From positions 62,001-126,000 of the forward strand of contig DATHJB010000170.1 in the NCBI GenBank assembly GCA_035316325.1: DNA of 64,000 nt, given 5' to 3'. Position 1 is the stretch's first letter. The number at the start of each line of letters is the position of its first letter. Below, one piece after another: positions 7,943 through 50,236 of this stretch. The stretch comes from Acidimicrobiales bacterium. Its GTDB lineage: Bacteria > Actinomycetota > Acidimicrobiia > Acidimicrobiales > VFJN01. Below the pieces are notes generated by a model. The model saw nothing but the letters and a program-made list of their open reading frames with translations, ran no database searches and had not been told where the DNA came from. The position numbers and the translations under genes are program-made.

Positions 7943-10643
<2,701 letters not shown>

Positions 10644-27214: not shown

Positions 27215-27222
<8 letters not shown>
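26173..27222 (-). CDS. oppF: Opp/Dpp-type ABC transporter ATPase (OppF-like)
   Basis: 349 residues from ATG 27222; a further upstream start (27249) would lie inside oppD. Walker [10 protein letters not shown], signature [15 protein letters not shown], Walker [14 protein letters not shown], then the OppF C-terminus with the cysteine region [12 protein letters not shown] (iron-sulfur or zinc-like motif seen in Dpp/Opp ATPases). It couples ATP to uptake of a peptide-like or other small molecule. Last gene of the five-gene importer operon. Confidence 0.92.
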
Positions 27223-28219
<997 letters not shown>

Positions 28220-28220
28220 G

Positions 28221-30151: not shown

Positions 30152-30182
30152 GTCGTTCCCCCTCTGCCGCTCTCGGCCGCCT

Positions 30183-30211
30183 GTCGGTCACCGGGTCAAC
30201 CGGTGACCGAC
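30183..30211 (-). other. Intercistronic hairpin at the binding-protein stop codon
   Basis: GTCGGTCACCGG (30183-30194) pairs perfectly with CCGGTGACCGAC (30200-30211), 5-base loop. On the minus strand it covers the last codons and stop (30198-30196) of the binding-protein gene, before oppB. Hairpins here usually stabilise the upstream message or reduce read-through, so that the binding protein is made in excess over the permease. Confidence 0.6.
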
Positions 30212-31731: not shown

Positions 31732-31756
31732 GTTGCGTCTCTCCTACTGTGAGTCT

Positions 31757-31794
31757 CCCGGTCACCGATGACCGGGATGTTCTCGGTATACAAT
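31757..31794. promoter_or_regulatory. Divergent operator region between importer and GntR gene
   Basis: Two elements. A 20-base palindrome CCCGGTCAccgaTGACCGGG (31757-31776) is perfect in its 8-base arms. GGTATACAAT (31785-31794) resembles sites at 50181-50192 and 47502-47513 (reverse). The second element also contains TACAAT, which could be a -10 box of the GntR gene, so operator and promoter may overlap. Confidence 0.5.
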
Positions 31795-31818
31795 CGACAA
31801 CAGACGGAGTCAACCTCT

Positions 31819-32523
31819 ATGACCCGTCTGAACGCAACGTTCACGCAAGGGAAACAACGGATGGTCGACGCCCACGCCCGTGCCCGCCCCATAGGTCAGA
31901 TCCACCAACCGCTGCGCGAGGCGGTGCAGGACGCGATCCGCGCCGCCATCGTCGACGGGCGCTATCCCCAGGGAGAGCGCCTGCTGGAGGACCAGCTCGC
32001 CCACGAGCTGGACGTCTCCCGCAACCCCGTGCGCGAGGCGCTGCAGGCGCTCGCCACCGAGGGCTTCGTGGTGATCGAACCCCGCCGGGGCGCACGGGTG
32101 GCATCGGTGTCGCCCGAGCGCGCCGGCGAGCTGTTCGAGGTGCGCGAGGTGCTGGAGGGCCTTGCCGCCCGGTTGGCCGCCTCCCGGCGGACGCCCGAGC
32201 AGCTGGCGGTGCTGGAGGACATCGTCGCCGAGGGCTCACGCCTCGTCGACGCCGGGCGCCTCGGCGAGCTGCCCGAGCTCAACACCCGGTTCCACGCCGC
32301 GCTGCAGGCCGCCGCCGCCAACGGGATGCTCACCGACGTGCTGGGCCGCCTCGGCCCCATCGTCACGTGGGTCTACGCCCACCGCATCGCCGAGCGCTCG
32401 ACCTACTCGTGGACCGAGCACGCCGCCATCGTCGAAGCGATCGCCGCCGGCGACGCCGACCTGGCCCACCGGCGGGCCTGCACCCACATCGCCGCCGCCC
32501 GCGCCGCCTACCTCACCGGCTGA
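31819..32523 (+). CDS. GntR-family regulator (FCD type) 2
   Basis: 234 residues from ATG 31819 (GGAG site 9 bases upstream); ATG 31861 is also possible and would remove 14 residues. DNA-binding domain: PLREAVQDAIRAAIVDGRYP, ELDVSRNPVREALQALATEG, FVVIEPRRGARVASV. FCD domain follows (ELFEVREVLEGLAARLAA, LNTRFHAALQAAAANGML). Divergent from the importer operon; convergent with the eight-gene catabolic operon. Likely local regulator of the importer and perhaps of other units sharing the TATACAA site. Confidence 0.9.
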   Translation: MTRLNATFTQGKQRMVDAHARARPIGQIHQPLREAVQDAIRAAIVDGRYPQGERLLEDQLAHELDVSRNPVREALQALATEGFVVIEPRRGARVASVSPERAGELFEVREVLEGLAARLAASRRTPEQLAVLEDIVAEGSRLVDAGRLGELPELNTRFHAALQAAAANGMLTDVLGRLGPIVTWVYAHRIAERSTYSWTEHAAIVEAIAAGDADLAHRRACTHIAAARAAYLTG

Positions 32524-32588: not shown

Positions 32589-33392
32589 TCAGGCGCCGAC
32601 GATGAGCCGGGCGTCGCGGTCGGCGAGGGCGCGGAGGACGGCGTAGGGGGTGACGGCGCTGGTGCGGGGGTTGGCCGACGGGGTGTTCTCGACGGTCAGC
32701 TCGTAACGGCCGGCGTCGGCCTCGACCTCGATGCGGTGCCGGACCCGGGCGGCCTCGGCCTCGGCGACGATGTCGACGTGGGTGGCGTCGAAGCCGGTCG
32801 TCGCCAGGGCCAGTGTGGCGGCCACGTTGGACGAGTCGGGGAAGCGCCGGACGGCGTCGCGGGCGGAGCCGGAGAACACGGTGTGGGGGTGGCGGGAGCG
32901 GAGGAGCTGTGCCCGCTCGTCGTCGGACATCCACGGTCGCTCCAGCGCCTGGGGACGCTTCACCGTGGTCAGCCGCACCGAGTGGACCGGGCCCATCAGC
33001 GCGGCGGCCCGCAGCAGGTCCAGCCCGCCGATCGCCCCGGACGACAGCAGCACCCGCCCCCGGCCCTCGTGGGTGTCGCAGAGGTGGGCGCGCAGCCGGT
33101 CGTCCACCAGGGCGCCGACGCTCACCACCAGCAGGTCGACCCCGGCGTCGACCACCGCCGGCCCGTGGTCGGCCAGCGCCTGGGCGCCGGCGGCCTCGAC
33201 CACGACGTCGCTGCGGTCGACCAGCTCGCCGATCGACGCCACCAGCAGGTCGAGCCCGGCCGCGACCACCGTGGGCCCGGAGCGTCGCAGCACCCCGGCG
33301 AGGCGGCAGCCAGGCACCTCGCCCCGCGCGAGCGCCTCGGCCACGACCGAGCCGATGGCCCCCGCGCCGATCACACCCACCGCGGCCGTCAT
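32589..33392 (-). CDS. nadX: Aspartate dehydrogenase-like protein
   Basis: 267 residues from ATG 33392, overlapping the dioxygenase stop. Rossmann motif VGVIGAGAIGSVVAEAL at the N-terminus, and the DUF108 domain marks LLSSGAIGGLDLLRAAALMG, VRLTTVKRP, VFSGSARDAVRRFPDSSNVA. Known members convert aspartate to iminosuccinate with NAD(P). In this setting, far from NAD genes and last in a ring-degradation operon, it more probably reduces or oxidises an amino/imino intermediate of the pathway; that is inference. Confidence 0.8.
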   Translation of the reverse strand: MTAAVGVIGAGAIGSVVAEALARGEVPGCRLAGVLRRSGPTVVAAGLDLLVASIGELVDRSDVVVEAAGAQALADHGPAVVDAGVDLLVVSVGALVDDRLRAHLCDTHEGRGRVLLSSGAIGGLDLLRAAALMGPVHSVRLTTVKRPQALERPWMSDDERAQLLRSRHPHTVFSGSARDAVRRFPDSSNVAATLALATTGFDATHVDIVAEAEAARVRHRIEVEADAGRYELTVENTPSANPRTSAVTPYAVLRALADRDARLIVGA

Positions 33393-34498
33393 GGGTCGGG
33401 CGCCCCTCGGGCCCGCCGGACCAGGTCGACCTGGAGGCGGGCCAGGAAGCCGAGCAGGGGATGGACGCCGAGGTCGCGGAGAGCCGGCTCGTCGAGGCCG
33501 ACGAGGGCGAGGCGTTCGGCGTCGCTCAGCGGGTAGCGGTCGACGAACCCGGCGGGGTCGTCGAGGAACGCGTCGGTGGCGTCGGGCTCGGAGCGGAGGG
33601 CGTACAGGGCCTCGTAGAGCGGCAGCCGGGCCGGGTCGGGCATGGGGTAGTGCAGCGGCTCGGCGCCCGAGTCGCCGTCGCGGTCGCCATCGCCGTCGCC
33701 CTTCGTCCACGCCGCGATGGCGTAGGTGTGGTGCCACGACGGCTCCACGGCCACCTCGTCGGGGACGACCTCGCCGACGGCGCCCGCCAGGATCAGCCAC
33801 GAGCGGGCCTCGACGTTGCCGGTGCGGTCGAGGGCGTCGTCGTCGAGCGCCAGCAGGGCACGGAGGTTGCCGGCGGCGATGCGCTCGACCAGGGCCCGGT
33901 CGCCGGCGACGTCGGGCTCGGAGTAGCGGTCGGTGCCGGGGTAGTGCGACAGACCGCCGCTGGCGACGACGACGGCCCGCACGTCGAGCTCCTCCAGCGC
34001 CCGGCGCAGCGCGACCCCGAAGGCGTAGCAGCGGTCGCCGCTGGGCTGCGGCGGCAGGTAGCTGTTCACGAAGATCGGCAGCACCGCCGTCTCGGGCCCG
34101 AAGCCGCAGAAGGTGAGCGGGATGCCGAACTCGTAGCCGATCGTGGCGTTCATCGAGTAGGCCGGGTCGAACCCCTGGCCCTGCAGCGAGCGCAGCACGG
34201 CGGCCGCGGTGCCCGACGGGACGGGCCAGGCGAAGTCACGGCCGGCGAAGGTGCCCTTGGCCTCGGGCCCGCACAGCACGGTGAACGAGGGGACGCAGTG
34301 GAGGGCGAAGTTGTCGAGGTGGTCGTTGGCGACGACCACCACCAGGTCGGGGCCCAGCGCCCGCAGCCGTTCGCCGACGCCGGCCATGCAGTCGTGCACC
34401 CGCTGCACCTGGGCGTGGTCCTCGGTGTCGGGCAGGGTGAAGAACTGGGGTGCGTGCGGCACCGCCGCCGCCCCCACGACACCCCCTCGGCGGCTCAC
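33389..34498 (-). CDS. Class III extradiol dioxygenase, LigB-LigA fusion
   Basis: 369 residues from GTG 34498 (GTGA overlap with the upstream gene). Residues 1-~270 are a LigB-type catalytic domain: VPHAPQF (first metal His), VVANDHLDNFAL (second His), VVVASGGLSHYPGT (catalytic His), and later EPSWHHTYAIAAW. Residues ~285-369 are a LigA-type small subunit (LYEALYALRSEP, DPAGFVDRYPLSDAERLALV). Two-subunit protocatechuate 4,5-dioxygenases carry these as separate chains; gallate dioxygenases carry a fusion. It opens a catechol-like or hydroxylated heteroaromatic ring using Fe(II) and O2. The substrate cannot be named. Confidence 0.85.
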   Translation of the reverse strand: MSRRGGVVGAAAVPHAPQFFTLPDTEDHAQVQRVHDCMAGVGERLRALGPDLVVVVANDHLDNFALHCVPSFTVLCGPEAKGTFAGRDFAWPVPSGTAAAVLRSLQGQGFDPAYSMNATIGYEFGIPLTFCGFGPETAVLPIFVNSYLPPQPSGDRCYAFGVALRRALEELDVRAVVVASGGLSHYPGTDRYSEPDVAGDRALVERIAAGNLRALLALDDDALDRTGNVEARSWLILAGAVGEVVPDEVAVEPSWHHTYAIAAWTKGDGDGDRDGDSGAEPLHYPMPDPARLPLYEALYALRSEPDATDAFLDDPAGFVDRYPLSDAERLALVGLDEPALRDLGVHPLLGFLARLQVDLVRRARGAPDP

Positions 34499-35034
34499 GC
34501 CCGCCCCCCGATCGTGACGGCGGTACCGGCGTCGGCGGTGATGGTGCCCAGGTCGGCGGCGGCCCGGGTGATGGCCCGGACGATGTTGACGTAGCCGGTG
34601 CAGCGACACAGGTTCCCGCCCAGCTCGTGACGGATGTCGTCGGGCGTGGCGTCGGGGCGGCGGGTGACGACGTCGACCGCCGTCATCAACATCCCGGAGG
34701 TGCAGAAGCCGCACTGGAGGCCGTGCTCGGCGGCGAACGCCTCCCGGACGGCATCGGCCACGGGACCGGCGAGGCCCTCGACGGTCACGACGTCGCTCCC
34801 GTCGCAGGCGGCGGCGAGAGTGATGCACGACCGCACCGGCCGGTCGTCGACCAGCACCGTGCAGGCCCCGCAGACCCCGTGCTCGCAGCCGAGGTGGGTG
34901 CCGGTGAGGTGCAGCCGCTCCCGCAGGGCGTCGGCCAGCGACAGCCGACCGGGCACCTGCAGCTCGTGCACAGCGCCGTTCACCCTCACCCGCACGGCGG
35001 TGCCGGGATCAGGAGCTGTGTCGTCGTCGGTCAT
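34495..35034 (-). CDS. Molybdenum hydroxylase, [2Fe-2S] subunit (CoxS-like)
   Basis: 179 residues. First cluster of the plant type: HLGCEHGVCGACTVLVDD, with a fourth Cys in RSCITLA. Second cluster in the helical domain: QCGFCTSGML and LCRCTGYVNI. All eight Cys are present. It passes electrons between the molybdenum and FAD subunits. The gene overlaps those for the FAD subunit and the dioxygenase. The C-terminus has a ~20 residue Thr/Ala/Gly tail. Confidence 0.94.
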   Translation of the reverse strand: MTDDDTAPDPGTAVRVRVNGAVHELQVPGRLSLADALRERLHLTGTHLGCEHGVCGACTVLVDDRPVRSCITLAAACDGSDVVTVEGLAGPVADAVREAFAAEHGLQCGFCTSGMLMTAVDVVTRRPDATPDDIRHELGGNLCRCTGYVNIVRAITRAAADLGTITADAGTAVTIGGRA

Positions 35035-35810
35035 GCAGCCTCCCTCTGGCGGGCCTGGTCGAGGGCGCGGGCGATGGTCACCCCGTGGAGGTGGCGCTCG
35101 TACGCGTCACCGTCGGGCAGTGCGGCGAGGTCGTCGGGGTCGACCCGTAGCGGCACCGATGCCGCCGCCCCCAGCCACACCTCGGCCCGGCCGTCGGCGG
35201 CGACGATCGCCACCGCCAGCGACTCCGCGAACTCGCCCGGTTTGCGGGCGGACTTGGCGAACCCCCAGCGCGACCCCGGCGCCAGGCGCGGCACGTCGAC
35301 GGCGACCACGGCCTCGTCGTCGTCGAGGGCGTTGGTGAAGAAGCCCTGCACGAACTCGGTGGCCGGCACGACGCGCTCGCCCCGCTCGGCCGATCGCACG
35401 ACGACCCCGGCTCCGAGGGCGGCCATCACCACCGGCCACTCCGCCGAGCTGTCGGCGTGGGCCAGGCTGCCGCCGAGCGTCCCCCGGTTGCGGATCGCCC
35501 GGTAGCCGATGCCCCCGGCGACCGCCCGCAGCAGGCCGTCGGCGGCGTCGGGCACCAGCGCGTCCTCGAACCACGAGTGCACGACGCCGGCCCCGTACCG
35601 GATCCGGTCGGGCGCCTCGGTCACGTCGGCCAGCTCCGCCACCCGCCCGATGTCGACGACCACGGCCGGCTGCGCCAACCGCATGTTCAGCAGCGGCACC
35701 AGGCTCTGCCCGCCCGACATCAGCTTCGCGTCGTCGCCGTGCTCCGCCAGCAACGCCAGGGCCTCGTCGGTCGACTCCGCCCGCCGGTATGTGAACGGCG
35801 CCGGCTTCAC
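35031..35810 (-). CDS. Molybdenum hydroxylase, FAD subunit (CoxM-like)
   Basis: 259 residues from GTG 35810 (GTGA overlap with the large subunit). FAD-site strings: LMSGGQSLVPLLNMRLAQP and GTLGGSLAHADSSAEWPVV with the preceding YRAIRNR. C-terminal domain of the family follows. The large reading frame upstream in this frame is antisense-like noise. Second of three subunits. Confidence 0.93.
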   Translation of the reverse strand: MKPAPFTYRRAESTDEALALLAEHGDDAKLMSGGQSLVPLLNMRLAQPAVVVDIGRVAELADVTEAPDRIRYGAGVVHSWFEDALVPDAADGLLRAVAGGIGYRAIRNRGTLGGSLAHADSSAEWPVVMAALGAGVVVRSAERGERVVPATEFVQGFFTNALDDDEAVVAVDVPRLAPGSRWGFAKSARKPGEFAESLAVAIVAADGRAEVWLGAAASVPLRVDPDDLAALPDGDAYERHLHGVTIARALDQARQREAA

Positions 35811-38221
35811 GCCGCCCCCTCGATGGCTTCCCACACCCGGCGGGGGGTGAGAGGGGTCTGGGTGATGGAGACGCCGAGGGTGTGGAGGGCGTCGGTGACG
35901 GCGTTGGCGATGGCGGCGGGTGGGGCGATGGCGCCGCCCTCGCCCATCCCCTTCATGCCGAGCACCGTGAACGGCGACAGGGTCTCGAGGTGGGCGATCT
36001 TGATGTCGGGGATCTCCGTGGCCCCCGGCAGCAGGTAGTCCATGAAGGTGGTGGCCTGGGGCTGGCCCTCGTCGTCGAAGGTCGACTCCTCCAGCAGCGC
36101 CGTGCCGATGCCCTGGGCGACGCCGCCGTGGATCTGCCCGTCGACGATCATCGGGTTCACCACCCGCCCGCAGTCCTCGGCGACGGCGTAGTCGAGCAGC
36201 GCCACCTGCCCGGTGTCGAGGTCGACCTCCACCACGGCGGCGTGGGTCGACGAGGCGAACGTGCCCGTCTCGACCGACGGCCGGTAGCGGTCGGTCACCT
36301 CCAGGCACGGGTCGATCTCGCGGGGCAGCCGCTCCATGTGGAGGTAGGCGGCGTCGGCGACCTCGGCCAGCGACACCTCGCCGGCCGGCCCCCGCACGGC
36401 GCCGTCGACCAGCGCCAGTTCGTCGGCCGGGCAGCCCAGCAGGTGGGCGGCGATCGCCACGACCTTGGCGGCCAGCTGCTCGCAGGCCCGGTAGGTGGCC
36501 CCGCCGGCCATCACCATCGACCGGGAGGCGAACGTGCCCATCCCGTAGGGCGCGGTCTCGGTGTCGCCGTGCAGGACATGGACGGTGGCGGGGTCGATGC
36601 CCAGCACCTCGCTCGCCACCTGGGCCAGCGTGGTCTCCAACCCCTGACCGTGTGACTGGATGCCCACCTTCACGGTGAGGGCCCCCGAGGGGTCGATCAC
36701 CGCGGTCGCCGACTCGAACCCGAACGTGACCGGCAGCCCCCGCGACACCCACTCGGCCTGACCGTGGGCGGTCTGCTCCGTGTAGGAGGCGTACCCCACC
36801 CCGAGCCGTCGCCGGCCGGTCCCGTCCGCCGCCTGGCGGGCCCGGACGGCGTCGTGCTCGATCAATCCTGAGGCGGCATCGACCGTGGCCGCGTAGTCGC
36901 CGCTGTCGTAGACCTTCCCCGTCACCGACGTGTAGGGGAACTCGTCGGGGCGGACCATGTTGCGGGCGCGGACGTCGCGGGCCTCGAGCCCCAGCGCCAG
37001 GGCCACCTCGTCGATCGTGCGCTCGATGGCGAAGCACGCGCCCGGCCGGGCGACCCCCCGGTACGGCCCGAGCGGGGGCTTGTTGGTGGCGACCGTGGTG
37101 GCGACGTAGCGGTAGTCCCGCAGCCGGTACGGCCCAGGGATGATGCCGGCGGCCATCCCCGCCTCCATCGCCGCCGTCCACGGCCAGACGGAGTACGCCC
37201 CCGAGTCGACCATGATCCGGGCGTCGATCCCGAGCAGCTCGCCGTCGGCCCGGGCGTGCGCGGTCATCTCGTACCGGTGCTCACGGGCCTGGGCGGAGCC
37301 GACCAGGTGCTCCCAGCGATCCTCGATCCAGCGGACCGGGCGCTCCACGAGCAGCGCCAGGGCACACAGCGCCACCTCCTCGGGATACAGGTTGTTCTTG
37401 ATCCCGAAGCCGCCGCCCACGTCGGGGGCGACCACCCGCAGCCGGTGCTCGGCCAGGCCGAGCTGCTGGGCCAGCACCGACCGGATGACATGGGGGAACT
37501 GCGTGGAGCTGTGGAGGACGAGCTGGTCGAGCCGACCGTCGTAGTGGGCGACGCAGCCCCGGGTCTCCAGCGGCACGCCGGCTTGGCGGCCCATCCGGTA
37601 CGAGCGGGTGATGGTGAGGTCGGCCTCGGCCGCCGCGGCGCGGAGGTCGCCCACCGAGGTGGTGGTCTCCAGGAACCGGTTGTCGGGCCAGTGCTCGTGG
37701 ACCAGCGGCGACTCCGGCCGCAGCGCCGCCTCCATGTCGACCACGGCCGGGAGCGGGTCGACGTCGACGAACACCTCGGCGGCCCGGTCCTCGGCGTCGG
37801 CCCGGTCGGTGCCCAGCACGGCGACGACCGGCTCGCCGACGAACCGCACCTTCCCCTCGGCCAGGATCGGGTACTCGGAGCTGCGGAAGTCGGGGTGCTT
37901 GGCGTCGGCGACGATGGGCCGGGCCAGCGGCCGCAGGTCATCGGCCGTGAAGGCCTGGACGCCGCCCGGCGCGTCGATCCCGACCAGGCGCCCGTGGGCC
38001 ACCTGGCTGCGGACGAAGGCGACCTCCAGCATCCCGGGCAGCACCACGTCGGCGACGAAGTGACCCTGCCCCCGCAGGTGCCGACGGTCCTCGTTGCGCC
38101 GCTGCCGGGCCCCGACCCCACCCGGCCGCACCACCCGAGCCGCTCGTCCACCCGCCGGCACCACCCCCGCTTCGGCTGTCGCGCCGGCGGGGGCGGTGGG
38201 CTGGGCCTCGGTCAGCCCCAT
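35807..38221 (-). CDS. Molybdenum hydroxylase, large subunit (CoxL-like)
   Basis: 804 residues from ATG 38221. Family marks: YRMGRQAGVPLETRGCVAHY, VVAPDVGGGFGIKNNLYPEE, GPYRGVARPGACFAIER, TVKVGIQSHGQGLETTLAQV, GTFASRSMVMAGGATYRAC, and the catalytic-Glu region VLGMKGMGEGGAIAPPAA. The active-site loop is PYRGVARP and lacks the Cys of form I CO dehydrogenase (AYRCSFR), so it is a hydroxylase of other substrates. These enzymes insert water oxygen next to a ring nitrogen or at an aldehyde. Overlaps the small Cys protein gene by 10 bases. Confidence 0.92.
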   Translation of the reverse strand: MGLTEAQPTAPAGATAEAGVVPAGGRAARVVRPGGVGARQRRNEDRRHLRGQGHFVADVVLPGMLEVAFVRSQVAHGRLVGIDAPGGVQAFTADDLRPLARPIVADAKHPDFRSSEYPILAEGKVRFVGEPVVAVLGTDRADAEDRAAEVFVDVDPLPAVVDMEAALRPESPLVHEHWPDNRFLETTTSVGDLRAAAAEADLTITRSYRMGRQAGVPLETRGCVAHYDGRLDQLVLHSSTQFPHVIRSVLAQQLGLAEHRLRVVAPDVGGGFGIKNNLYPEEVALCALALLVERPVRWIEDRWEHLVGSAQAREHRYEMTAHARADGELLGIDARIMVDSGAYSVWPWTAAMEAGMAAGIIPGPYRLRDYRYVATTVATNKPPLGPYRGVARPGACFAIERTIDEVALALGLEARDVRARNMVRPDEFPYTSVTGKVYDSGDYAATVDAASGLIEHDAVRARQAADGTGRRRLGVGYASYTEQTAHGQAEWVSRGLPVTFGFESATAVIDPSGALTVKVGIQSHGQGLETTLAQVASEVLGIDPATVHVLHGDTETAPYGMGTFASRSMVMAGGATYRACEQLAAKVVAIAAHLLGCPADELALVDGAVRGPAGEVSLAEVADAAYLHMERLPREIDPCLEVTDRYRPSVETGTFASSTHAAVVEVDLDTGQVALLDYAVAEDCGRVVNPMIVDGQIHGGVAQGIGTALLEESTFDDEGQPQATTFMDYLLPGATEIPDIKIAHLETLSPFTVLGMKGMGEGGAIAPPAAIANAVTDALHTLGVSITQTPLTPRRVWEAIEGAA

Positions 38222-38367
38222 CGCTCGTCGATGGCGGCGGCCTCGTCGACCGTGAACTTCCGCCTGTCGTAGGGGCATTCCAGCTGCACGTCGGCGTGCC
38301 GGATGCCGTAGTCGACCGAGAACGCCTTGCCGCAGCCCGGGCACGTCACCCAGAAGATCCGTTGCAT
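38212..38367 (-). CDS. Small Cys-rich (zinc-ribbon-like) protein, 51 aa
   Basis: A short gene between ubiD and the molybdenum large subunit. It starts with ATG 38367, ten bases after the ubiD stop, and ends TGA 38214-38212 inside the next start. It reads MQRIFWVTCPGCGKAFSVDY, then GIRHADVQLECPYDRRKF and a helical end with DEAAAIDERWG. Cys9, Cys12 and Cys31, with His24 or Asp34, could hold a zinc or iron. In position and style it recalls the small D subunits (VdcD/YclD) of hydroxyarylic acid decarboxylases that sit next to UbiD-type catalytic subunits, but the sequence similarity is only general. Confidence 0.75.
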   Translation of the reverse strand: MQRIFWVTCPGCGKAFSVDYGIRHADVQLECPYDRRKFTVDEAAAIDERWG

Positions 38368-38377
38368 GCCGGTCCCT

Positions 38378-39775
38378 TCAGCTCCCCGCCAGGTAGGCGT
38401 CGAGGTCGATGCGGTCGAGGGCCTCCTGCGGCACCCGGTTCATCTCGGGGATCGCCTTGTCGAGCGGCCGCGTGGCGTCGATGAGCACCTTCCGGTAGCC
38501 CATCGACGTGGTGAACACCGTCGGGATGTTGTGGATCATGTCGACGTCCCGGGACGGGTCGACGTTGACGAGCGTCGCCCAGATGACGTCCTCCTCGTTG
38601 AACACGTCGATCACGCTGTCGACCACCACCACCACCTGGAACGTCCACGACTCCTGGATGGCGGCCAGCGCCACGGCCTTGCCCTGCCCCTCGCGGGTCT
38701 TGGCGATCGACACGTAGCAGGCCAGCCGGCCGCAGCCCGAGTAGGGCAGGTGCACCGCGGTGACGATGTCGCCGAACTTGCGGCGCAGCGTGTTGTAGAG
38801 CGTCCCCTCCTTGGGGATCTGACCGACGGTGAAGTGGTCGTGGTGGCCGGCGAAGACGTCCTGCAGGATGGCGTCGTGGCGCCGGGTGATGGCGGTCACG
38901 TTCATCACCGGCCGCAGGGTCTGGGCCTGGTACTGGCGGGTGATGTCGCCGAACGGGTCGGCGATCAGGCGCTCGCCGGGCGGCACCTCGCCCTCGATGA
39001 GGATCTCGGCGTCGGCCGGGACCAGGAACTCGTCGCCCCACGTCTCGGAGGGCACCAGCCTCAGCGGCTCGCCCAGGAAGCCGCCGATGGTGGTGAAGTC
39101 GTCGGACTCGTACGGCGTCAGCCCCATCGTCCCCAGGTAGAAGGCGGGGTGGTGACCCAGCACGGCCACGATCGGCATGGGCTGCTGCCGGGCCTCGTAC
39201 CAGGCGAGCGCCCGCTCGGTGTCGGGGGAGTGGATGGTGATCCGCAGCCGCTGGTGGTCCTCGAAGTCGTAGAACGCCTTGATGAAGGCGGCGTTGTAGG
39301 CGCCGGTCTCCGGGTCCTTCACCAGCAGGGTCATGGTGAGGCAGGGCCCGTAGTCGCCCTCGGAGTGGATGACGACCGGCAGGTCGCGGGTGTCGATCCG
39401 GTCGCCGGTCAGCACCACCTCCTTGGCGGGTGCGTCGCCGGCGCCGACCACGGTGGGCCCGATGCCGGCCTCGCCGAGGCGGGAGAACTCCAGGCTCAGC
39501 GGCAGGTCGGACTGGTCGCGGGGGAAGTCGAGCGCCGTGGCGCAGCGGGCCCGCTCGGCGAACACGTTGATGAGCACCGGGATGTCGGAGGGCTCGCCCC
39601 GGAGGTTCTTCGGGTGCTCGAACAGCACCGCCGGCCGCTCGCCCCGCCGGTACAGGTGCTCCATCACGGCGGTCACGTCGTAGTTGGCGGGGTCGACCTC
39701 TCGGGTGACCCGCCGGAGGTCGTCGGGGTGCTCCGACTCGATCTGCTTGATGAAGGTGCGCAGGTCCTTGGCCAT
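38378..39775 (-). CDS. ubiD: UbiD-family decarboxylase
   Basis: 465 residues. Family marks: LRTFIKQIESEHPDDLRRVT, VLINVFAERARCATAL, the prFMN/metal region YGPCLTMTLLVKDPETGAYN, PAFYLGTMGLTPYESDDFTT, DAEILIEGEVPPGERL (two acid residues of the E-R-E set), GQIPKEGTLYNTLRRKFGDI. It removes or adds CO2 on aromatic or unsaturated carboxylates with prenylated FMN, made by the ubiX product encoded 2 kb away. With the small Cys protein and the molybdenum enzyme in the operon, it is likely part of a degradation pathway and not of ubiquinone or menaquinone synthesis. Confidence 0.92.
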   Translation of the reverse strand: MAKDLRTFIKQIESEHPDDLRRVTREVDPANYDVTAVMEHLYRRGERPAVLFEHPKNLRGEPSDIPVLINVFAERARCATALDFPRDQSDLPLSLEFSRLGEAGIGPTVVGAGDAPAKEVVLTGDRIDTRDLPVVIHSEGDYGPCLTMTLLVKDPETGAYNAAFIKAFYDFEDHQRLRITIHSPDTERALAWYEARQQPMPIVAVLGHHPAFYLGTMGLTPYESDDFTTIGGFLGEPLRLVPSETWGDEFLVPADAEILIEGEVPPGERLIADPFGDITRQYQAQTLRPVMNVTAITRRHDAILQDVFAGHHDHFTVGQIPKEGTLYNTLRRKFGDIVTAVHLPYSGCGRLACYVSIAKTREGQGKAVALAAIQESWTFQVVVVVDSVIDVFNEEDVIWATLVNVDPSRDVDMIHNIPTVFTTSMGYRKVLIDATRPLDKAIPEMNRVPQEALDRIDLDAYLAGS

Positions 39776-39787
39776 CGTCTCCTCGAT

Positions 39788-41251
39788 TCAGCTGTCGGGG
39801 GTCAGCCGGAGGCCGACGAACTTGAGCTGCGACAACGCCTCCATGGCGTAGCGGACGCCCTCGCGACCGACGCCGCTCTGGCCGTAGCCGCCGAAGGGGG
39901 TGGTGTCGAGGCGGAAGCGGGTGGACTCGTTGATCCACACCGACCCGGCCGCGATGTCCTCGGCGGCTCGCAGGGCATGGGAAAGGCTGCGGGTGAAGCA
40001 CGCCGCCTGCAACCCGAAGGGCGAGTCGTTGGCGATGGCGACGGCGTGGTCGAGCGAGTCGGCCGGCAGCACCACTGCCACCGGGCCGAACACCTCGTCG
40101 CGGCAGATCATGGCGTCGGGCGGCGCGTCGACCACCACGGTCGGCCCGAAGCACAGGTCGTCGTCGCGGTCGGGCCGCCCGTCGAGCAGGAGCTTGGCGC
40201 CCCGCTCCTCGGCGTCGGTGACGAAGCGCGCCACGGCGTCGCGGCGGCCCTTGTGGGCCAGCGGGCCGATCTCGGTGGCCGGGTCGTCGGGGTCGCCCAC
40301 GACCATGGCCTGGGCGGCGGCGACGAAGCGGCCGACGAAGGCGTCGAACGCGGGCCGCTCGACGATCACCCGCTGCGCCGAGATGCACTGCTGGCCGCTG
40401 GCGCCGAAGGCGGCGTGGGCGATGCTGGCGGCGGCGTCGTCCAGGTCGGCGTCGGCGAGGACGATGTTGGGGGCGTTCGAGCCGAGCTCCAGCAGCACCG
40501 GCTTGATCCCGGCGGCCGCCATGACCGCCCGACCGGCGGCGACTCCGCCCGTGAGCGTGACGGCCCGCACCTGGGGGTGCGACGCCAGGCCGCGGGCGAT
40601 CTCGGGCCCTCCCGGGAGGACGCTCAGCAGGCCCGGCGGAAGGGCATCGCCGAGCAGCTCGGCGATCTGGAGGGCGACGATCGCCCCCTCGGGCGCCGGC
40701 TTCACCACGACGGCGTTGCCGACGGCCAGCGCCGGCGCCACCTTCTGCAGCAGCAGGTTGACGGGGGCGTTGAACGGCGTGACCGCGGCGACCACGCCGA
40801 ACGGCTCGCGACGGGTGAGGCCCCAGCGGCCGTCACCTCCGGGGACCCCGTCGAGGGGGAGGTTCTCGCCGCCGAAGCGGGAGATCTCCTCGGCCGCCAG
40901 GTCGAGCAGCTGGACGCCCCGGCCCACCTCGAACTCGCTGGCCCGGCGGGGCTTGCCCAGCGTGGCGACGAGCGTGTCGACGAGGTCGGCCGCATGCTCG
41001 GCGAGGGCCCGGGCGCCGGCGTGCAGCCAGCCGGCCCGCACGTGACCGGGCGTCCGCCGGTGCTGCCGGGCGGCCTCGTGGCCGAGGGTGACGGCCCGCT
41101 CGACGTCGGCGGCGGTGGCCTGCTCCACCTCGCCGAGGGGGCGGCCGCGGAAGGGGGCGACGGCCTCGGCGACGGAACGGGTCTCGTCGCGGTCCGACGC
41201 TCCACCCAGCCAGAGCCCCCAGCGCCCGGCGCCGTCCTCGATCTGTCGCAT
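39788..41251 (-). CDS. Aldehyde dehydrogenase 1
   Basis: 487 residues. NAD site VTLTGGVAAGRAV, LLELGSNAPNIVLADADL with catalytic Glu, and catalytic Cys in GASGQQCISAQRVIVERP; EVFGPVAVVLPAD and FGGYGQSGVGREG follow. Note LTGG instead of the usual FTGS at the NAD loop. First gene of the minus-strand operon, preceded by an operator-like region. It probably oxidises the semialdehyde formed by ring cleavage. Confidence 0.92.
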   Translation of the reverse strand: MRQIEDGAGRWGLWLGGASDRDETRSVAEAVAPFRGRPLGEVEQATAADVERAVTLGHEAARQHRRTPGHVRAGWLHAGARALAEHAADLVDTLVATLGKPRRASEFEVGRGVQLLDLAAEEISRFGGENLPLDGVPGGDGRWGLTRREPFGVVAAVTPFNAPVNLLLQKVAPALAVGNAVVVKPAPEGAIVALQIAELLGDALPPGLLSVLPGGPEIARGLASHPQVRAVTLTGGVAAGRAVMAAAGIKPVLLELGSNAPNIVLADADLDDAAASIAHAAFGASGQQCISAQRVIVERPAFDAFVGRFVAAAQAMVVGDPDDPATEIGPLAHKGRRDAVARFVTDAEERGAKLLLDGRPDRDDDLCFGPTVVVDAPPDAMICRDEVFGPVAVVLPADSLDHAVAIANDSPFGLQAACFTRSLSHALRAAEDIAAGSVWINESTRFRLDTTPFGGYGQSGVGREGVRYAMEALSQLKFVGLRLTPDS

Positions 41252-41296
41252 GGTCCCTCCTCTCCTCGGTCTCGGGGCCTGCTCGAAGTGTCCCTA

Positions 41297-41360
41297 CCAA
41301 TCTGGCATCCAAGGCAGAACGGGCGCAAGTGGTCCTGCCAATCTTCTCGAATGCTTGGCA
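41297..41360. promoter_or_regulatory. Candidate operator for the FadR-type GntR protein
   Basis: TGCCAA (41336-41341) and TTGGCA (41355-41360) form an inverted repeat with a 13-base spacer. CCAATCT occurs twice as a direct repeat (41297-41303 and 41338-41344), 41 bases apart, close to four helical turns. The region is the divergent gap between aldehyde dehydrogenase 1 and the GntR gene at 41412, so it could control both operons. Confidence 0.45.
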
Positions 41361-41411
41361 AACGGGCCTCGATGGGACATGATGGTCGGACCACTTCGGG
41401 AAGGGAGGCCA

Positions 41412-42137
41412 ATGGCGGCGGCTGCGCCCGCACAATCCAACGACCACGATCGGGTGTCGACCTCGGTGGTCGACCACCTGCGTGAGATCCTGGAATCCGG
41501 CGAGCTGGGTCCTGGCGACCGTCTCCCCGCCGAGCGCGAGCTGGCGGAGAGCCTGGGCGTCGGTCGCAACAGCATCCGCGAGGCCCTGCGCGAGCTGCAG
41601 TCGCTGGGGCTCGTGGAGTCTCGCCGTGGTGCCGGCACCTTCGTGCGGGCCGCCGACCCGAGCTTGTTGATGGCGCCGTTCCAGGCGGTCATCTCCCTGT
41701 CGCAGGCCGCGGTCGACGACGTGATGGAGTTCCGCCTGGCGTTCGAGCCCGAGGTGGCGGCGATGGCGGCCGCCAACGCGGAGGAGGAGGACGTCCTCGA
41801 TCTGGGCAGCGCGCTGCGCCGGTTCAACTGGGCCGTCGAGTCCGACGCACACCCCCTCGACGCCGACATCGCCTTCCACGAGGCGGTCGCCCGCTGCACC
41901 AAGAACCCGTTGGTGATCGCCGTGCAGCACGCGCTCAATCAGCTGTTCGCCGAGCTGCGCACCCGGTTGTCGGCCAACAGCTACCAGCCCGACGACCACG
42001 CACCCCGGGGTCACCAGGCACTGTTCGGGGCCATCGTCGCCGGAGACCCCAACGCCGCCCGCGACGTCATGCGCCGGCACCTCGAAGAGGTGGAGGAGTC
42101 CCTGGCGATCTGGCGCGGCCTGGACGATCTGGAATGA
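41412..42137 (+). CDS. GntR-family regulator (FadR type) 3
   Basis: 241 residues from ATG 41412 with a GGGAGG site upstream. Winged helix: STSVVDHLREILESGELGPG, DRLPAERELAESLGVGRNSI, REALRELQSLGLVESRRGAG. FCD ligand domain in the C-terminal half, with DIAFHEAVARCTKNPL and RGHQALFGAIVAGDPNAARD. The PAERELAE form marks the FadR/PdhR group. Its stop overlaps ubiX (ATGA), so it is co-transcribed with the cofactor genes. Likely the pathway regulator for the divergent catabolic operon. Confidence 0.92.
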   Translation: MAAAAPAQSNDHDRVSTSVVDHLREILESGELGPGDRLPAERELAESLGVGRNSIREALRELQSLGLVESRRGAGTFVRAADPSLLMAPFQAVISLSQAAVDDVMEFRLAFEPEVAAMAAANAEEEDVLDLGSALRRFNWAVESDAHPLDADIAFHEAVARCTKNPLVIAVQHALNQLFAELRTRLSANSYQPDDHAPRGHQALFGAIVAGDPNAARDVMRRHLEEVEESLAIWRGLDDLE

Positions 42138-42712
42138 CACGCCCTACCCCCGATCGACCGCGGCTGGTGGTGGGCATCTCCGGGTCGAGCGCGCCTCAGC
42201 TCGGCATCGGCCTGCTGCGGGCCCTGCACGACCTCGGCACCGTCGAGACCCACCTGGTGGTGTCGAACGGGGCCGTCCAGACCCTCAAGCTCGAGGCCGA
42301 CACCGACGTCGCCACGGTCGCCGCCCTGGCCGACGTGGTGCACGACAACGCGGACCTCGCCGCGGCCATCTCCTCCGGCTCGTTCCGCACGCAGGGCATG
42401 GTGGTGATCCCGTGCTCGATGCGGACGCTCGCCGGCGTCGCCACCGGCAACACCACCGACCTGCTCACCCGGGCCGCCGACGTCACCCTGAAGGAACGAC
42501 GGCGGCTGGTGCTGGTGCCCCGGGAGACGCCGCTCAACCTCATCCACATCCGCAACATGGAGACGGTCACGCTGGCGGGCGCCACGGTGCTGCCGCCGGT
42601 GCCGGCCTTCTACCACCGGCCCCGCTCGATCGACGACCTGGTGGCGCACATCGCCGGCAAGGTGCTCGACCAGTTCGGCATCGAGCACGACCTCTTCACC
42701 CGATGGTCGTGA
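42134..42712 (+). CDS. ubiX: UbiX flavin prenyltransferase
   Basis: 192 residues. Flavoprotein motif LVVGISGSSAPQLGIGLLRA (usual GxSGA is GISGSS here), MVVIPCSMRTLAGVATGNTT (the conserved PCSMxTLA), RLVLVPRETPLNLIHIRNME and PPVPAFYHRPRSIDDLV. It makes prenylated FMN from FMN and dimethylallyl phosphate for the UbiD enzyme. Overlaps the GntR stop and the next start. Confidence 0.94.
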   Translation: MTRPTPDRPRLVVGISGSSAPQLGIGLLRALHDLGTVETHLVVSNGAVQTLKLEADTDVATVAALADVVHDNADLAAAISSGSFRTQGMVVIPCSMRTLAGVATGNTTDLLTRAADVTLKERRRLVLVPRETPLNLIHIRNMETVTLAGATVLPPVPAFYHRPRSIDDLVAHIAGKVLDQFGIEHDLFTRWS

Positions 42713-43161
42713 ACGTCCCCGAGGCCGTGGCCGCGGCGCTGACGACGCCGGTCGAGGTGGGCGTGCCCACGCAGATGTTCCCCTTCCTGACCGTCGACGA
42801 CGCCGGCGCACCGCACTGCGCCGTGGTGTCGTCCACCGAGGTGGCGGTGGCCGACGACGGAACCAAGCTGTTCCTCGTGCTCGGTGGCCGGCGGTCCCGG
42901 TCCTACCTGGAGGCAAGTGGTCGGGCGACGCTGCTGGCCGTCGAGGGCACCACGCTCCACACCCTGAAGCTCACGCTGGTGGCGTCGCGGGAGCACGACG
43001 GGGTGTTCGCCGCCGCGCTGCAGGTCGCCGACCACCAGGCCGACAGCCTCGGCATCGCCCTGGTGCCGCTGGGGTTCACGCCGCCGCCCGACATCGCCGA
43101 GCGCGAGCGCTGGGACGTCACCGTCGCCGCGCTCGCTGCCATCCGTCACCAGAGGAGCTGA
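42703..43161 (+). CDS. Pyridoxamine-phosphate-oxidase-like (split beta-barrel) protein
   Basis: 152 residues. ATG 42703 or GTG 42709, both overlapping the ubiX stop. Residues 20-100 show the split-barrel pattern of FMN-binding proteins (FPFLTVDDAGAPHCAVVSST, LFLVLGGRRSRSYLEASGRA). It could bind FMN or a related flavin, so a role in handling the prenylated FMN or its precursor is attractive, but this is inference from the neighbours. No catalytic residues can be assigned. Confidence 0.65.
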   Translation: MVVNVPEAVAAALTTPVEVGVPTQMFPFLTVDDAGAPHCAVVSSTEVAVADDGTKLFLVLGGRRSRSYLEASGRATLLAVEGTTLHTLKLTLVASREHDGVFAAALQVADHQADSLGIALVPLGFTPPPDIAERERWDVTVAALAAIRHQRS

Positions 43162-43162
43162 C

Positions 43163-43825
43163 GTGGAGCTGACCAACCGATTCCGGGTCGCCGTGCCGAT
43201 CGCCGAGGCATGGGCCCTGCTCACCGACGTCGAGCGGATCGCGCCGTGCCTCCCCGGCGCCCAGCTCACCGAGATCGAGGGCGACGAGTACCGGGGTGTC
43301 GTCAAGGTGAAGGTGGGGCCGATCACGGCGCAGTACCGGGGTGTGGCCCGCTTCGTGGAGCGCGACGAGGGGGCGCACCGGGCGGTCCTGCGGGCCGAGG
43401 GCCGGGAGACCAGGGGTCAGGGCAACGCCGCGGCGACGGTGAGCGCCCAGCTCACGTCGGACGGCGACGGCACCGAGGTCGCGGTCGTCACCGACCTGAC
43501 GATCACCGGCAAGGTCGCCCAGTTCGGTCGCGGCGTCCTCGCCGACGTCTCCACCAAGCTCCTCGACCAGTTCGTGAGCTCCCTAGAGTCGCAGCTCGCG
43601 GCCGGCTCCAACGGCCACGGCGGGCCGGAGGCGAGCTCGGCCGGTGCCGCCGCGGCCAAGGACCCGTCTCCGGAGGTCCGTCACATCGATTCGCCCGAGG
43701 CCGAGCCCGTCGACCTCCTCGACGCCGCCGGTGCCCCGGTCTTCCGCCGCGCCGCCCCGCTGCTGGCCGGCTTCGCCATCGCCTGGTTCGTCCTCCGGGT
43801 CCTGCGCAAGCGCAAGAACAGGTAG
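43163..43825 (+). CDS. coxG: CoxG-like SRPBCC protein with C-terminal membrane anchor
   Basis: 220 residues from GTG 43163. Residues 1-145 match the CO dehydrogenase subunit G family: FRVAVPIAEAWALLTDVERI, APCLPGAQLTEIEGDEYRG, VKVKVGPITAQYRGVARF and the closing DQFVSSLESQL. A linker rich in Ala/Ser/Glu follows. Residues ~193-212 are hydrophobic (PLLAGFAIAWFVLRVL) with a basic end RKRKNR, so a tail anchor is likely. In carboxydotrophs CoxG recruits the molybdenum enzyme to the membrane. It should do so for the enzyme encoded at 34-38 kb. Confidence 0.88.
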   Translation: MELTNRFRVAVPIAEAWALLTDVERIAPCLPGAQLTEIEGDEYRGVVKVKVGPITAQYRGVARFVERDEGAHRAVLRAEGRETRGQGNAAATVSAQLTSDGDGTEVAVVTDLTITGKVAQFGRGVLADVSTKLLDQFVSSLESQLAAGSNGHGGPEASSAGAAAAKDPSPEVRHIDSPEAEPVDLLDAAGAPVFRRAAPLLAGFAIAWFVLRVLRKRKNR

Positions 43826-43832
43826 CGCCGGG

Positions 43833-44603
43833 CTAGAAGCCGCGGACGGCGCCGCCGTCGACCCGGACTGCGGTGCCGGTGACGAACGAGGCCCGCTCGC
43901 TGCAGAGGAAGGCGACGACGTCGGCCAGCTCCTCGGGGCGGCCGACACGGCCCAGGGGGATCGCGGCGAGGTGCTCGGCGTGGACCTCCTCTACTGGGCG
44001 ATCCTCCGCGGCGGCCCGGGCCGCCTCGAAGCGCTCCAGCCCGCCGGTGGCGAACTGGCCGGTCACCACCACGGTGACGTTCACGTCGGGCGCCAGCTCC
44101 AGCGCCAGCGACCGGGCCATCGCCGACACGCCGCTGCGGAACACCGAGGACAGCGCCAGGTCCGGCGACGCCTCGACGATCGACCGGGCCGTCATGAACA
44201 CCAGCCGTCCACCGCCACCGCCACTACCAGCCGCCCGGCGCAGGTGCGGCGCCGCGGCCCGGGACACCTCCAACGCCGGCCGCAGCATCGACGCGTAGGC
44301 GGCATCGTCGAACCCGTCGGTGGCCATGATCCCGCCGGGCTTCCCGCCGCCGGTGTTGACCACGCACATGTCGAGCCCGCCCAGCACCGCCACGGCGTCG
44401 GCGACCACCTGCGCACCCGCGCCCGGCACGGTCAGGTCGACGACCACCCCCGTCGCCCCGTCCACCGACGCCGCCCGCTCGGCCGACCGGGACGTCACGA
44501 CCACCTGGGCACCCTCGGCGAGCAGCGTCTCCGCCACCGCCCGCCCCAGCCCCGCCGACGACCCCAGCACCAGCGCCCGCTTGCCCTCAAGACCCAGGTC
44601 CAT
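43833..44603 (-). CDS. Short-chain dehydrogenase family protein, atypical active site
   Basis: 256 residues. Cofactor site: KRALVLGSSAGLGRAVAETL, VVNTGGGKPGG. In the catalytic region the alignment is SSVFRSGVSAMARSLALELA, where the family has YxxxK; here Tyr becomes Ser and Lys becomes Arg. The C-terminal PLGRVGRPEELADVVAFLCS and TGTAVRVDGG are standard. Such YxxxK-lacking SDRs exist, often with unknown activity. Last gene of the minus-strand unit. Confidence 0.85.
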   Translation of the reverse strand: MDLGLEGKRALVLGSSAGLGRAVAETLLAEGAQVVVTSRSAERAASVDGATGVVVDLTVPGAGAQVVADAVAVLGGLDMCVVNTGGGKPGGIMATDGFDDAAYASMLRPALEVSRAAAPHLRRAAGSGGGGGRLVFMTARSIVEASPDLALSSVFRSGVSAMARSLALELAPDVNVTVVVTGQFATGGLERFEAARAAAEDRPVEEVHAEHLAAIPLGRVGRPEELADVVAFLCSERASFVTGTAVRVDGGAVRGF

Positions 44604-44607
44604 CCGC

Positions 44608-46053
44608 TCAGCTCCCCAGGAAGACGGTCCGGCTGACCGTGTAGAAGTCCATGACCGTCGGCCCGAGCTGCTCCTTGTGGACGCCCGTGCCCGACTGCTT
44701 GATCCCGCCGAAGGGGGCGTTGAGCGCCGCCCCGACGGTCGGCCGGTTGACCTTCACCATCCCGGCCTCCACCTCGGCGACGAACCGCTGGGCGGCGCCC
44801 AGGTCACGGGTGCAGATCGCCGCCGCCAGCCCGTACTCGACGTCGTTGGCCGACTCGATCGCCTGGTCCAGCCCCGACACCCGCTCGAACCCCACGACCG
44901 GCCCGAACACCTCGTCCCGCGCCAACGCACTGCCCCGAGCAACCCCCGTGAGCACGGTCGGCGGGAAGAAGCACCCACGAGCCAGAGCTCCCTCGACAGC
45001 CCGGGAACCCCCGCACGCCACCGCAGCGCCCTCGGCCACGGCACCCGCCACCGCGGCCTCCATCGCCGAGACGGCACCCGCATCGACCAGCGGCCCCATC
45101 GTCACCCCGTCGGCGTCGCCCGGCCCGATCACGTACCCCGAGGCCAACTGCACGACCCGCTCCAGCAGCTCGTCGTGCACCGATGCCTCGACGAGGATCC
45201 GCCCTGCGCCCGTGCAGGCCTGGCCGGTGAGGCTGAACGACGACCGGGCCACCACCTGGGCGGCGGCGTCGAGGTCGGCGTCGGCCAGCACGACCACCGG
45301 GTTCTTGCCGCCCAGCTCCAGCTGCGAACGTCGCCCCAGCCCGATCGACGAGTGGATCTTCCGACCCGTCGCCAGTGACCCCGTGAACGTGACGGCGCCC
45401 ACCCGCGAGTCGGTCACCAGGGCAGCGCCTGCACCGAACCCGTGCACCACGTTGACCACGCCCGGGGGGAAGCCGGCGGCCTCGAAGGCGGCGCCCAGCC
45501 GGTCGCCCATCAACGGCGTGAGCGGTGACGGCTTGAACACCACGGTGTTGCCCGCCGCCAGCGCCGGCCCGATCTTCCGGCTCGCCAGGTTCAGGGGGAA
45601 GTTCCACGGCGTGATGACCCCCACCACGCCGACGGGGTCGCGGGTCGTCCACGCCAGCGTCCCGTCGTCGGAGGGGAACGTGGTGCCGGTGAGCCGCAGC
45701 GCCTCGCCGGCGTAGATCTCCAGGTTCTTCGGCGTCCGCCCGGCCTCCATGCGGGCGTCGGCCAGCGGCTTGCCCTCTTCGGCCACCATCTCGCGGGCGT
45801 TCCGGTCGGCGTCACCGGCCAGCACGTGGGCGGCCCGCCCCAGTAGTTCGGCCCGCTGCGAAGGCGTGGTCCGCCGCCACGAAGCCGCCGCGTCGACCGC
45901 GGCCGCCACTGCCGCCGCCATGTCGTCCGGCGTCGACTCGGGCGCCACCGACACGACCCGCTCGACGTCCGCGGGGTTGCGTCGCTCGAAGACGGCGCCG
46001 TCCGCGGCGGGCACCGCCGCGCCGCCGATCCGGTTCAAGACCTCGACGGTCAC
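44608..46053 (-). CDS. Aldehyde dehydrogenase 2
   Basis: 481 residues from GTG 46053, which follows the GlcG stop by 2 bases; a farther ATG lies inside the GlcG gene. Canonical marks: ITPWNFPLNLASRKIGPALA, FTGSLATGRKI, LELGGKNPVVVLADADL (Glu), SLTGQACTGAGRILVEA (catalytic Cys), DEVFGPVVGFERV, NAPFGGIKQSGTG. More typical of the family than aldehyde dehydrogenase 1. It oxidises an aldehyde or semialdehyde with NAD(P). Confidence 0.93.
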   Translation of the reverse strand: MTVEVLNRIGGAAVPAADGAVFERRNPADVERVVSVAPESTPDDMAAAVAAAVDAAASWRRTTPSQRAELLGRAAHVLAGDADRNAREMVAEEGKPLADARMEAGRTPKNLEIYAGEALRLTGTTFPSDDGTLAWTTRDPVGVVGVITPWNFPLNLASRKIGPALAAGNTVVFKPSPLTPLMGDRLGAAFEAAGFPPGVVNVVHGFGAGAALVTDSRVGAVTFTGSLATGRKIHSSIGLGRRSQLELGGKNPVVVLADADLDAAAQVVARSSFSLTGQACTGAGRILVEASVHDELLERVVQLASGYVIGPGDADGVTMGPLVDAGAVSAMEAAVAGAVAEGAAVACGGSRAVEGALARGCFFPPTVLTGVARGSALARDEVFGPVVGFERVSGLDQAIESANDVEYGLAAAICTRDLGAAQRFVAEVEAGMVKVNRPTVGAALNAPFGGIKQSGTGVHKEQLGPTVMDFYTVSRTVFLGS

Positions 46054-46055
46054 GG

Positions 46056-46535
46056 TCAGTCCGCCGTGGGGGTCGGGGGCTGCCAGTCGTCCCACTTGGC
46101 GAAGTCGACGGGTTCGCCAAGGTGCTCCAGCAGGGCGGTGATCCCCGCCTTGCAGCAGGCGATGTCCTCCCTGGTGTGGCCGCCGGACACGCCGATGCCG
46201 CCCACCACCTCGCCGCCGACCTCGATCGGCCAGCCGCCCACGAAGATCGTGAACCTGCCGCCGTGCATGTTCATGATCCCGAACGCCTCCTGGCCGGGCT
46301 GGGCGTTCGTGTAGGTGTGGGTGGGCCGGCGGTGGCAGGCGGCGGTGAAGGCCTTGGCGACGGCGATGTCGACGCTGGTGACCTTGCCGTTGTCGGGCCG
46401 CTTCACCACGATCGGGTAGCCGGCGGCGTCACTGACGCACACCACCGAGCCGACGCCCAGCTCGGCCGCGGTGGCCAGGGCGGCGTCGACGGCGATCTCG
46501 GCCTCGGCGAGGGACAGGCGATGACTGACGATCAC
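46056..46535 (-). CDS. GlcG/HbpS-family protein
   Basis: 159 residues from GTG 46535 (GTGA overlap with the upstream gene). Family string: SLAEAEIAVDAALATAAELG, VVCVSDAAGYPIVVKRPDN, VDIAVAKAFTAACHRRPTHT, MHGGRFTIFVGGWPIEVGGE, VVGGIGVSGGHTREDIACC. GlcG/HbpS proteins occur beside oxidative pathways for hydroxy acids and aromatics and sometimes bind heme or cobalamin; the function is unclear. Here it accompanies two dehydrogenases and an imine-type enzyme. Confidence 0.88.
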   Translation of the reverse strand: MIVSHRLSLAEAEIAVDAALATAAELGVGSVVCVSDAAGYPIVVKRPDNGKVTSVDIAVAKAFTAACHRRPTHTYTNAQPGQEAFGIMNMHGGRFTIFVGGWPIEVGGEVVGGIGVSGGHTREDIACCKAGITALLEHLGEPVDFAKWDDWQPPTPTAD

Positions 46536-50127: not shown

Positions 50128-50173
50128 GTCAGCAGGCCTGTTCGGGGGAAGAAGGGGCTTGCGTCATGAGGGA

Positions 50174-50192: not shown

Positions 50193-50236
50193 TGAAGGAC
50201 GAGGGGATCAGAATCCGTACGGAAGGGACCACTCCC

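Follow-up and report, generated by a model that had tools for sequence, protein, structure and literature searches.

A stretch of 64,000 nucleotides from an Acidimicrobiales bacterium (assembly GCA_035316325.1, contig DATHJB010000170.1, positions 62,001 to 126,000), referred to here as the window, contains at positions 32589-43825 two divergent operons that had been predicted to form an undescribed locus for the catabolism of an aromatic carboxylate. Gene models were built from open frames, codon-position GC content, ribosome-binding sites and protein families. All twelve genes are open, full-length frames, and most show the distribution of GC over codon positions that is expected of real genes. 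They are listed with a candidate operator and with a hydrolase gene that lies beyond this span.

39788-41251, minus strand: aldehyde dehydrogenase (ALDH), 487 aa; PF00171, 475 bits
38378-39775, minus strand: UbiD-family decarboxylase dependent on prenylated flavin mononucleotide (prFMN), HmfF-like, 465 aa; PF01977, PF20695, PF20696
38212-38367, minus strand: 51-aa Cys-rich, zinc-ribbon-like protein; weak DUF7560 match, under the cut-off
35807-38221, minus strand: CoxL-type molybdenum hydroxylase large subunit; PF02738, PF20256, PF01315
35031-35810, minus strand: CoxM-type flavin adenine dinucleotide (FAD) subunit; PF00941
34495-35034, minus strand: CoxS-type 2x[2Fe-2S] subunit; PF00111, PF01799
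33389-34477, minus strand: LigB-LigA fusion (LigBA), non-canonical class III extradiol dioxygenase, 362 aa; PF02900
32589-33392, minus strand: aspartate-dehydrogenase-like protein (NadX), 267 aa; PF01958, PF03447
41383-41393, no strand: candidate FadR/FCD-type GntR operator TGGTCGGACCA, of a form that fits the FadR type
41412-42137, plus strand: GntR/FCD transcription regulator; PF00392, PF07729
42134-42712, plus strand: UbiX flavin prenyltransferase; NCBIfam UbiX models, above cut-off
42709-43161, plus strand: PhdC-type prFMN maturase (split-barrel protein), 150 aa; similar to solved PhdC structures
43163-43825, plus strand: CoxG-like (SRPBCC) protein; PF06240, with the gene also present in related clusters
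48670-50127, minus strand: gamma-glutamyltransferase (GGT)-like N-terminal nucleophile (Ntn) hydrolase, the proposed amide-cleaving enzyme; PF01019

All genes, eight on the minus strand and four on the plus strand, are intact and tightly packed, and they belong to the families named in the original prediction. The minus-strand genes had been described as overlapping almost throughout; this holds for four of the seven junctions (10, 4, 4 and 4 bases), whereas 12, 10 and 17 bases separate the genes at the other three. From GntR to CoxG, the junctions are -4, -4 and +1 bases. The operons are separated by an intergenic region of 160 bp, and the position of TGGTCGGACCA within it is suggestive of a GntR operator. 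Across the 64-kb window, the four TNGTNNNACNA sites are at chance level, and the GntR operator does not stand out above chance.

CoxLMS is a molybdenum hydroxylase of the xanthine oxidase family, with L, M and S subunits, all of the domains and the catalytic Glu of the GEGG motif. The best solved relative of CoxL is quinoline 2-oxidoreductase (1t3q), at 556 bits versus 464 and 428 for CO dehydrogenases. Its active loop reads GPYRGVAR and lacks the Cys loop of CO dehydrogenase; together with a score of 584 bits against a cut-off of 950, this rules out an aerobic (form I) CO dehydrogenase.

The LigB part of LigBA matches PF02900 with 109 bits (cut-off 26), which places it in the LigB superfamily. 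The LigA part has no Pfam match. Despite this silence, an AlphaFold2 model (mean predicted local distance difference test score 86) finds its best fold match in the gallate dioxygenase DesB, itself a LigB-LigA fusion, over about 400 columns, and the predicted fusion is upheld. In an alignment of 15 family members (A1), the two His and one Glu ligands of Fe(II) and the base His are kept (H8, H53, E223 and H178), and a WHH motif is invariant. The acid His (H124 of DesB, H127 of LigB, H115 of MhpB) is replaced by Tyr in the window protein. Most alphaproteobacterial loci likewise have Tyr here, the Burkholderiales type has Thr, Ser also occurs, and most outgroup LigB proteins have His. In DesB, activity of the H124F variant was undetectable, and H124 is the counterpart of the residue proposed as the acid in MhpB (PMC3962378). 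Against the gallate dioxygenase equivalog, LigBA scores 49 bits (cut-off 412). With the acid His lost, the expectation of a standard class III extradiol enzyme was not borne out, and ring opening would fall to a non-canonical one. In a tree, the family separates from the outgroups, and the window sequence forms a deep branch that is weakly placed (92/66). Grouping of the Tyr-type proteins as one clade was rejected, as the tree gives it no support.

A scan of genome contigs with LigBA as the single query protein identified 14 loci (L037-L050), all in Proteobacteria, with 43-53% identity over nearly the whole protein. Cultured environmental carriers include Variovorax soli NBRC 106424, Rhodovarius crocodyli and Paracandidimonas soli. 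The order CoxL-CoxM-CoxS-LigBA recurs in most of them and hence in another phylum, so the gene set is more than a chance assembly. Twelve (L037, L040-L050) are of a Burkholderiales type, arranged as GntR, then TctC-CoxLMS-LigBA-FAD monooxygenase-CoxG-GGT, and genes for RidA and FAA hydrolase usually accompany this set. Near LigBA in these loci are genes for GGT (10/12), FAA hydrolase (9/12), RidA/YjgF (8/12) and the FAD monooxygenase (8/12). The presence of GGT, RidA and FAA hydrolase fits an amide and enamine intermediate. The monooxygenase is closest to 2-methyl-3-hydroxypyridine-5-carboxylate oxygenase, at 192 bits versus 78 for the next enzyme. In L041 and L048, a Rieske oxygenase and its reductase take the place of CoxLMS. 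The cluster of LigBA, GGT and Rieske genes in L041 (Achromobacter denitrificans) is flanked by two RidA genes, at 7611-7991 and 16654-17034, with identical translations.

The closest counterpart comes from one alphaproteobacterial genome (L101/L110), where the order is GntR, then CoxL-CoxM-CoxS-LigBA-ALDH-GGT-CoxG, a branched-chain-type ABC transporter and NadX, with no UbiD, UbiX or PhdC. Identities to the window are 56% for CoxL, 49% for LigBA, 51% for ALDH, 41% for GGT and 40% for NadX. Because this cluster groups them, it suggests that ALDH, NadX, CoxG and the GGT-like gene of the window also belong with CoxLMS-LigBA. Directly past it, L110 (1042-15717) carries a second NadX, a second ALDH (51%), an amidase-like gene and a further CoxLMS. 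A short contig, L038, has the order CoxLMS-LigBA-ALDH-CoxG, and in the order of its host 11 of 43 genomes have a family member. No other member was found in the order, class and phylum of the window (about 300, 395 and 396 genomes, partly shared). Plasmid matches were rejected as members; they have at most 34% identity, fall in other LigB groups and lack the cluster. On a plasmid of Azospirillum argentinense (L052, 1469-13912), CoxLMS (CoxL 52%), GGT, an SRPBCC protein, an amidase and HpxZ occur without LigBA, in a kindred cluster that would process the ring by another step. In L107 (1927-14668), LigBA lies about 6.5 kb from UbiD (26%) and an MR_MLE gene and adjoins genes for Aldolase_II, a 2-hydroxyacid dehydrogenase and Amidohydro_2; L105 and L106 have similar UbiD neighbors. 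The 51-aa Cys protein of the window has no relative in the other loci compared.

Relatives of ALDH lie directly 3' of LigBA in L038 (52%) and L101. The best solved relative of NadX is the L-aspartate dehydrogenase 2dc1, and its scores fall below two equivalog cut-offs (169 bits versus 207 for TIGR03855, and 174 versus 267). The GGT-like gene is one of three in the genome. Its product is 41% identical to the GGT within the L101 cluster versus 27% to GGT44, and it scores 127 bits against the gamma-glutamyltransferase equivalog (cut-off 358). The nucleophile Thr is kept, and Gly aligns with D433 of E. coli GGT, the Asp that binds the gamma-glutamyl group; a non-glutamyl acyl group is therefore a likely substrate. 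The gene probably belongs to the pathway, which had been confined to 32589-43825 and would then extend to 48670-50127. An HpxW-type identity (oxamate amidohydrolase) was considered and is unsupported by the ranking of solved relatives.

All three UbiD domains are present in UbiD. Its best solved relatives, at 165 bits, are 6h6x and 6h6v, which we take to be HmfF structures; the PhdA structure 6da6 reaches only 73 bits. PMC8379154 lists 6H6V with the UbiD-family structures on which it drew. H314 aligns with a His of 6h6x/6h6v that E. coli UbiD does not have at this position, and the HmfF His has a role in furan-type specificity (PMC7976604). The Glu-Arg-Glu triad is altered to K166, A272 and D277 (R to K, E to A and E to D). 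Nearly all of 19 compared UbiDs have the triad, and Asp replaces the last Glu in 3 of the 19. Decarboxylation in the window would thus be the work of a non-canonical UbiD. UbiX scores above the subfamily cut-offs (255 bits versus a cut-off of 188, and 232 versus 109, NCBIfam models). Directly after UbiX, the split-barrel protein matches PhdC structures (9srg, 9srj and 9nk0; E value about 2e-26) and keeps all of the active-site residues (E47, F126, a hydrophobic residue at 132, E136 and W138) described for the PhdC maturase (PMC13040415). Of the 14 genomes that gave L037-L050, 7 have UbiD genes, none of them within the cluster, and no close relative of UbiD was found in the class of the window. 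The absence of UbiD from these clusters, and of UbiD, UbiX and PhdC from L101/L110, suggests that the three proteins are a local addition outside the pathway core. UbiD and UbiX had been counted as parts of the pathway, and that view has to be changed.

We consider it about as likely as not that these genes specify the aerobic breakdown of a carboxylate or dicarboxylate of an N-heteroaromatic ring of the hydroxypyridine type. A nitrogen-containing heteroaromatic substrate is likely because CoxL is nearest to quinoline 2-oxidoreductase and the Burkholderiales monooxygenase is nearest to a 3-hydroxypyridine-carboxylate oxygenase. From the observed gene families, their conserved association and the assignments of PhdC, CoxL and LigBA, we infer the substrate, the order of reactions and every intermediate. 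First, UbiD would remove one carboxyl, probably beside the ring nitrogen, with UbiX as the source of prFMN and the PhdC-like protein as its maturase. CoxLMS, helped by CoxG, would then hydroxylate the carbon next to nitrogen, giving a 3-hydroxy-2-pyridone. LigBA would open this ring beside the hydroxyl (extradiol cleavage) to an N-acyl, oxamate-type enamine carrying an aldehyde. Finally, the GGT-like Ntn hydrolase would cleave the amide, ALDH would oxidize the aldehyde and NadX would reduce the imino acid. Starting from a picolinate-type ring, NadX would receive iminosuccinate as the fragment and form aspartate. As an example, 5,6-dihydroxypicolinate, if opened as LigAB opens protocatechuate, would give N-oxalyl-2-amino-4-oxobutenoate, and amide hydrolysis, ALDH and NadX would lead to aspartate. 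In the Burkholderiales form, RidA and an FAA-type acylpyruvase would act instead and yield pyruvate and formate. What stands of the original prediction is an aerobic, probably N-heteroaromatic route with decarboxylation, molybdenum-dependent hydroxylation and ring opening in co-arranged operons; UbiD/UbiX, which it included, lies outside the conserved core.

A more specific proposal, which we offer tentatively and regard as doubtful, is that LigBA represents a new class III branch without the acid His. It would open 3-hydroxy-2-pyridones, which could chelate the iron without that residue, to N-oxalyl enamines that are cut by the GGT-type Ntn hydrolase. Together with the molybdenum hydroxylase, this would constitute an undescribed N-heteroaromatic pathway of two phyla; in the window, a UbiD whose triad is altered would feed it, and aspartate would be its end product.

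Several observations weigh against an N-heteroaromatic pathway. The cluster encodes no ring monooxygenase, and the substrate must therefore bring the first hydroxyl itself. The acid His, which DesB requires for activity (PMC3962378), is missing from LigBA, and the altered triad means that decarboxylase activity of UbiD is not assured. Among solved structures, GGT and cephalosporin acylase, and not oxamate amidohydrolase, come closest to the GGT-like proteins; the window gene also belongs to another operon, 14 kb away from LigBA. Some LigBA relatives occur in benzenoid-looking contexts, with HpaB in L088 and UbiD, MR_MLE and Amidohydro_2 in L107; the family is therefore not tied to N-heterocycles. 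Candidates for missing steps were sought elsewhere in the genome. Several PF01494 genes could encode an FAD monooxygenase, and the strong ones are all on other contigs; no FAA hydrolase gene lies in the window, and seven matches lie elsewhere.

The benzenoid contexts also speak for an alternative that we judge unlikely. Here, the molybdenum enzyme would oxidize an aromatic aldehyde to the acid, UbiD would decarboxylate it to a catechol, LigBA would cleave the catechol, and ALDH and NadX would act like semialdehyde dehydrogenase and LigC. Molybdenum hydroxylases of the CoxLMS family oxidize aldehydes too, and the fold of LigBA is nearest to DesB/LigAB. However, CoxL is nearest to an enzyme of an N-heterocycle, the GGT-like, RidA and pyridine-type monooxygenase partners have no obvious role on a nitrogen-free ring, and LigBA no longer has the acid His on which DesB and MhpB depend with catechols. 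Less probable still is a separate role for UbiD, UbiX and PhdC, for instance in quinone metabolism, with the pathway formed by CoxLMS-LigBA-ALDH-GGT-NadX alone. The clusters without UbiD (L101/L110 and L037-L050) agree with this, yet UbiD is embedded in the operon, with ALDH on one side, CoxL on the other and gaps of 10-12 bases, and UbiX and PhdC share one operon with the CoxG of the pathway. In addition, UbiD falls well under the menaquinone decarboxylase cut-off (138 bits versus 496), and the genome carries another UbiX-type flavoprotein gene elsewhere. Least probable is a furan route, in which UbiD would be a furan dicarboxylate decarboxylase, CoxLMS a furoyl-CoA-type dehydrogenase, and LigBA and NadX unrelated passengers: the kinship of UbiD with 6h6x/6h6v, the shared specificity His and the joining of UbiD, UbiX and a molybdenum enzyme in Hmf clusters speak for it, but CoxLMS-LigBA forms a conserved unit from which UbiD is absent, and no CoA ligase or thioesterase is among the annotated genes from 24.6 to 51 kb.

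Around the operons, the minus-strand genes at 43833-46520 face CoxG and encode a short-chain dehydrogenase/reductase (SDR), a second ALDH and an HbpS-like protein; SDR and HbpS genes adjoin LigBA in L085 too. The region at 26173-32523, which adjoins the NadX end of the operon, holds an oligopeptide-type ABC transporter (two ATPases, two permeases and SBP_bac_5), possibly an uptake system, and a second, divergent GntR/FCD regulator. A Haem_oxygenas_2 gene (50006-50956; PF14518, iron-containing redox enzyme) is divergent from the GGT-like gene. Farther away (13219-16623) lies an ergothioneine-type set of PIG-L, EgtB-like (FGE-sulfatase/DinB) and EgtD-like (PF10017) genes.

If the N-heteroaromatic pathway is real, its genes would give access to a route, scattered among bacteria and undescribed, by which nitrogen-containing aromatic rings are broken. 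Direct tests would become possible of how an extradiol dioxygenase can dispense with an acid His thought essential, and a UbiD with its usual Glu-Arg-Glu triad. The pathway would also tie a GGT-family acylase and an aspartate-dehydrogenase-like enzyme, which pipelines annotate as glutathione and NAD metabolism, to aromatic catabolism. As predicted, no description of this gene combination was found in open-licence full-text literature, and its novelty is to that extent provisional.

Like quinoline 2-oxidoreductase and other CoxLMS-type enzymes, the window hydroxylase has three subunits, all of the domains and the GEGG Glu; it differs in its operon partners and is not a CO dehydrogenase. The pic and nic pathways (picolinate and nicotinate via 2,5-dihydroxypyridine) also begin with a molybdenum hydroxylase and an N-heteroaromatic carboxylate. 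Their ring opening is of the NicX type, whereas no NicX-type dioxygenase is among the annotated genes from 24.6 to 51 kb (the rest of the genome was not searched for one). LigBA shares its domain order, iron ligands and base His with DesB and LigAB and is set apart by Tyr, Thr or Ser in place of the acid His and by the WHH motif. The phdABC genes of Mycolicibacterium fortuitum present the same UbiD-UbiX-PhdC triplet, with conserved PhdC active-site residues (PMC13040415), but the window UbiD is nearer to 6h6x than to PhdA, its triad is altered, and the triplet is combined with a molybdenum hydroxylase and LigBA. The 4-hydroxypyridine (kpi) and lumichrome (lum) pathways likewise hydroxylate an N-heterocycle, open it by extradiol cleavage and hydrolyze an amide (PMC7356986, PMC12746152). 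They do so with different enzymes, as KpiC is a dioxygenase of the amidohydrolase family, lum uses a thiamine pyrophosphate-dependent decarboxylase and other genes, and neither contains the gene set of the window.

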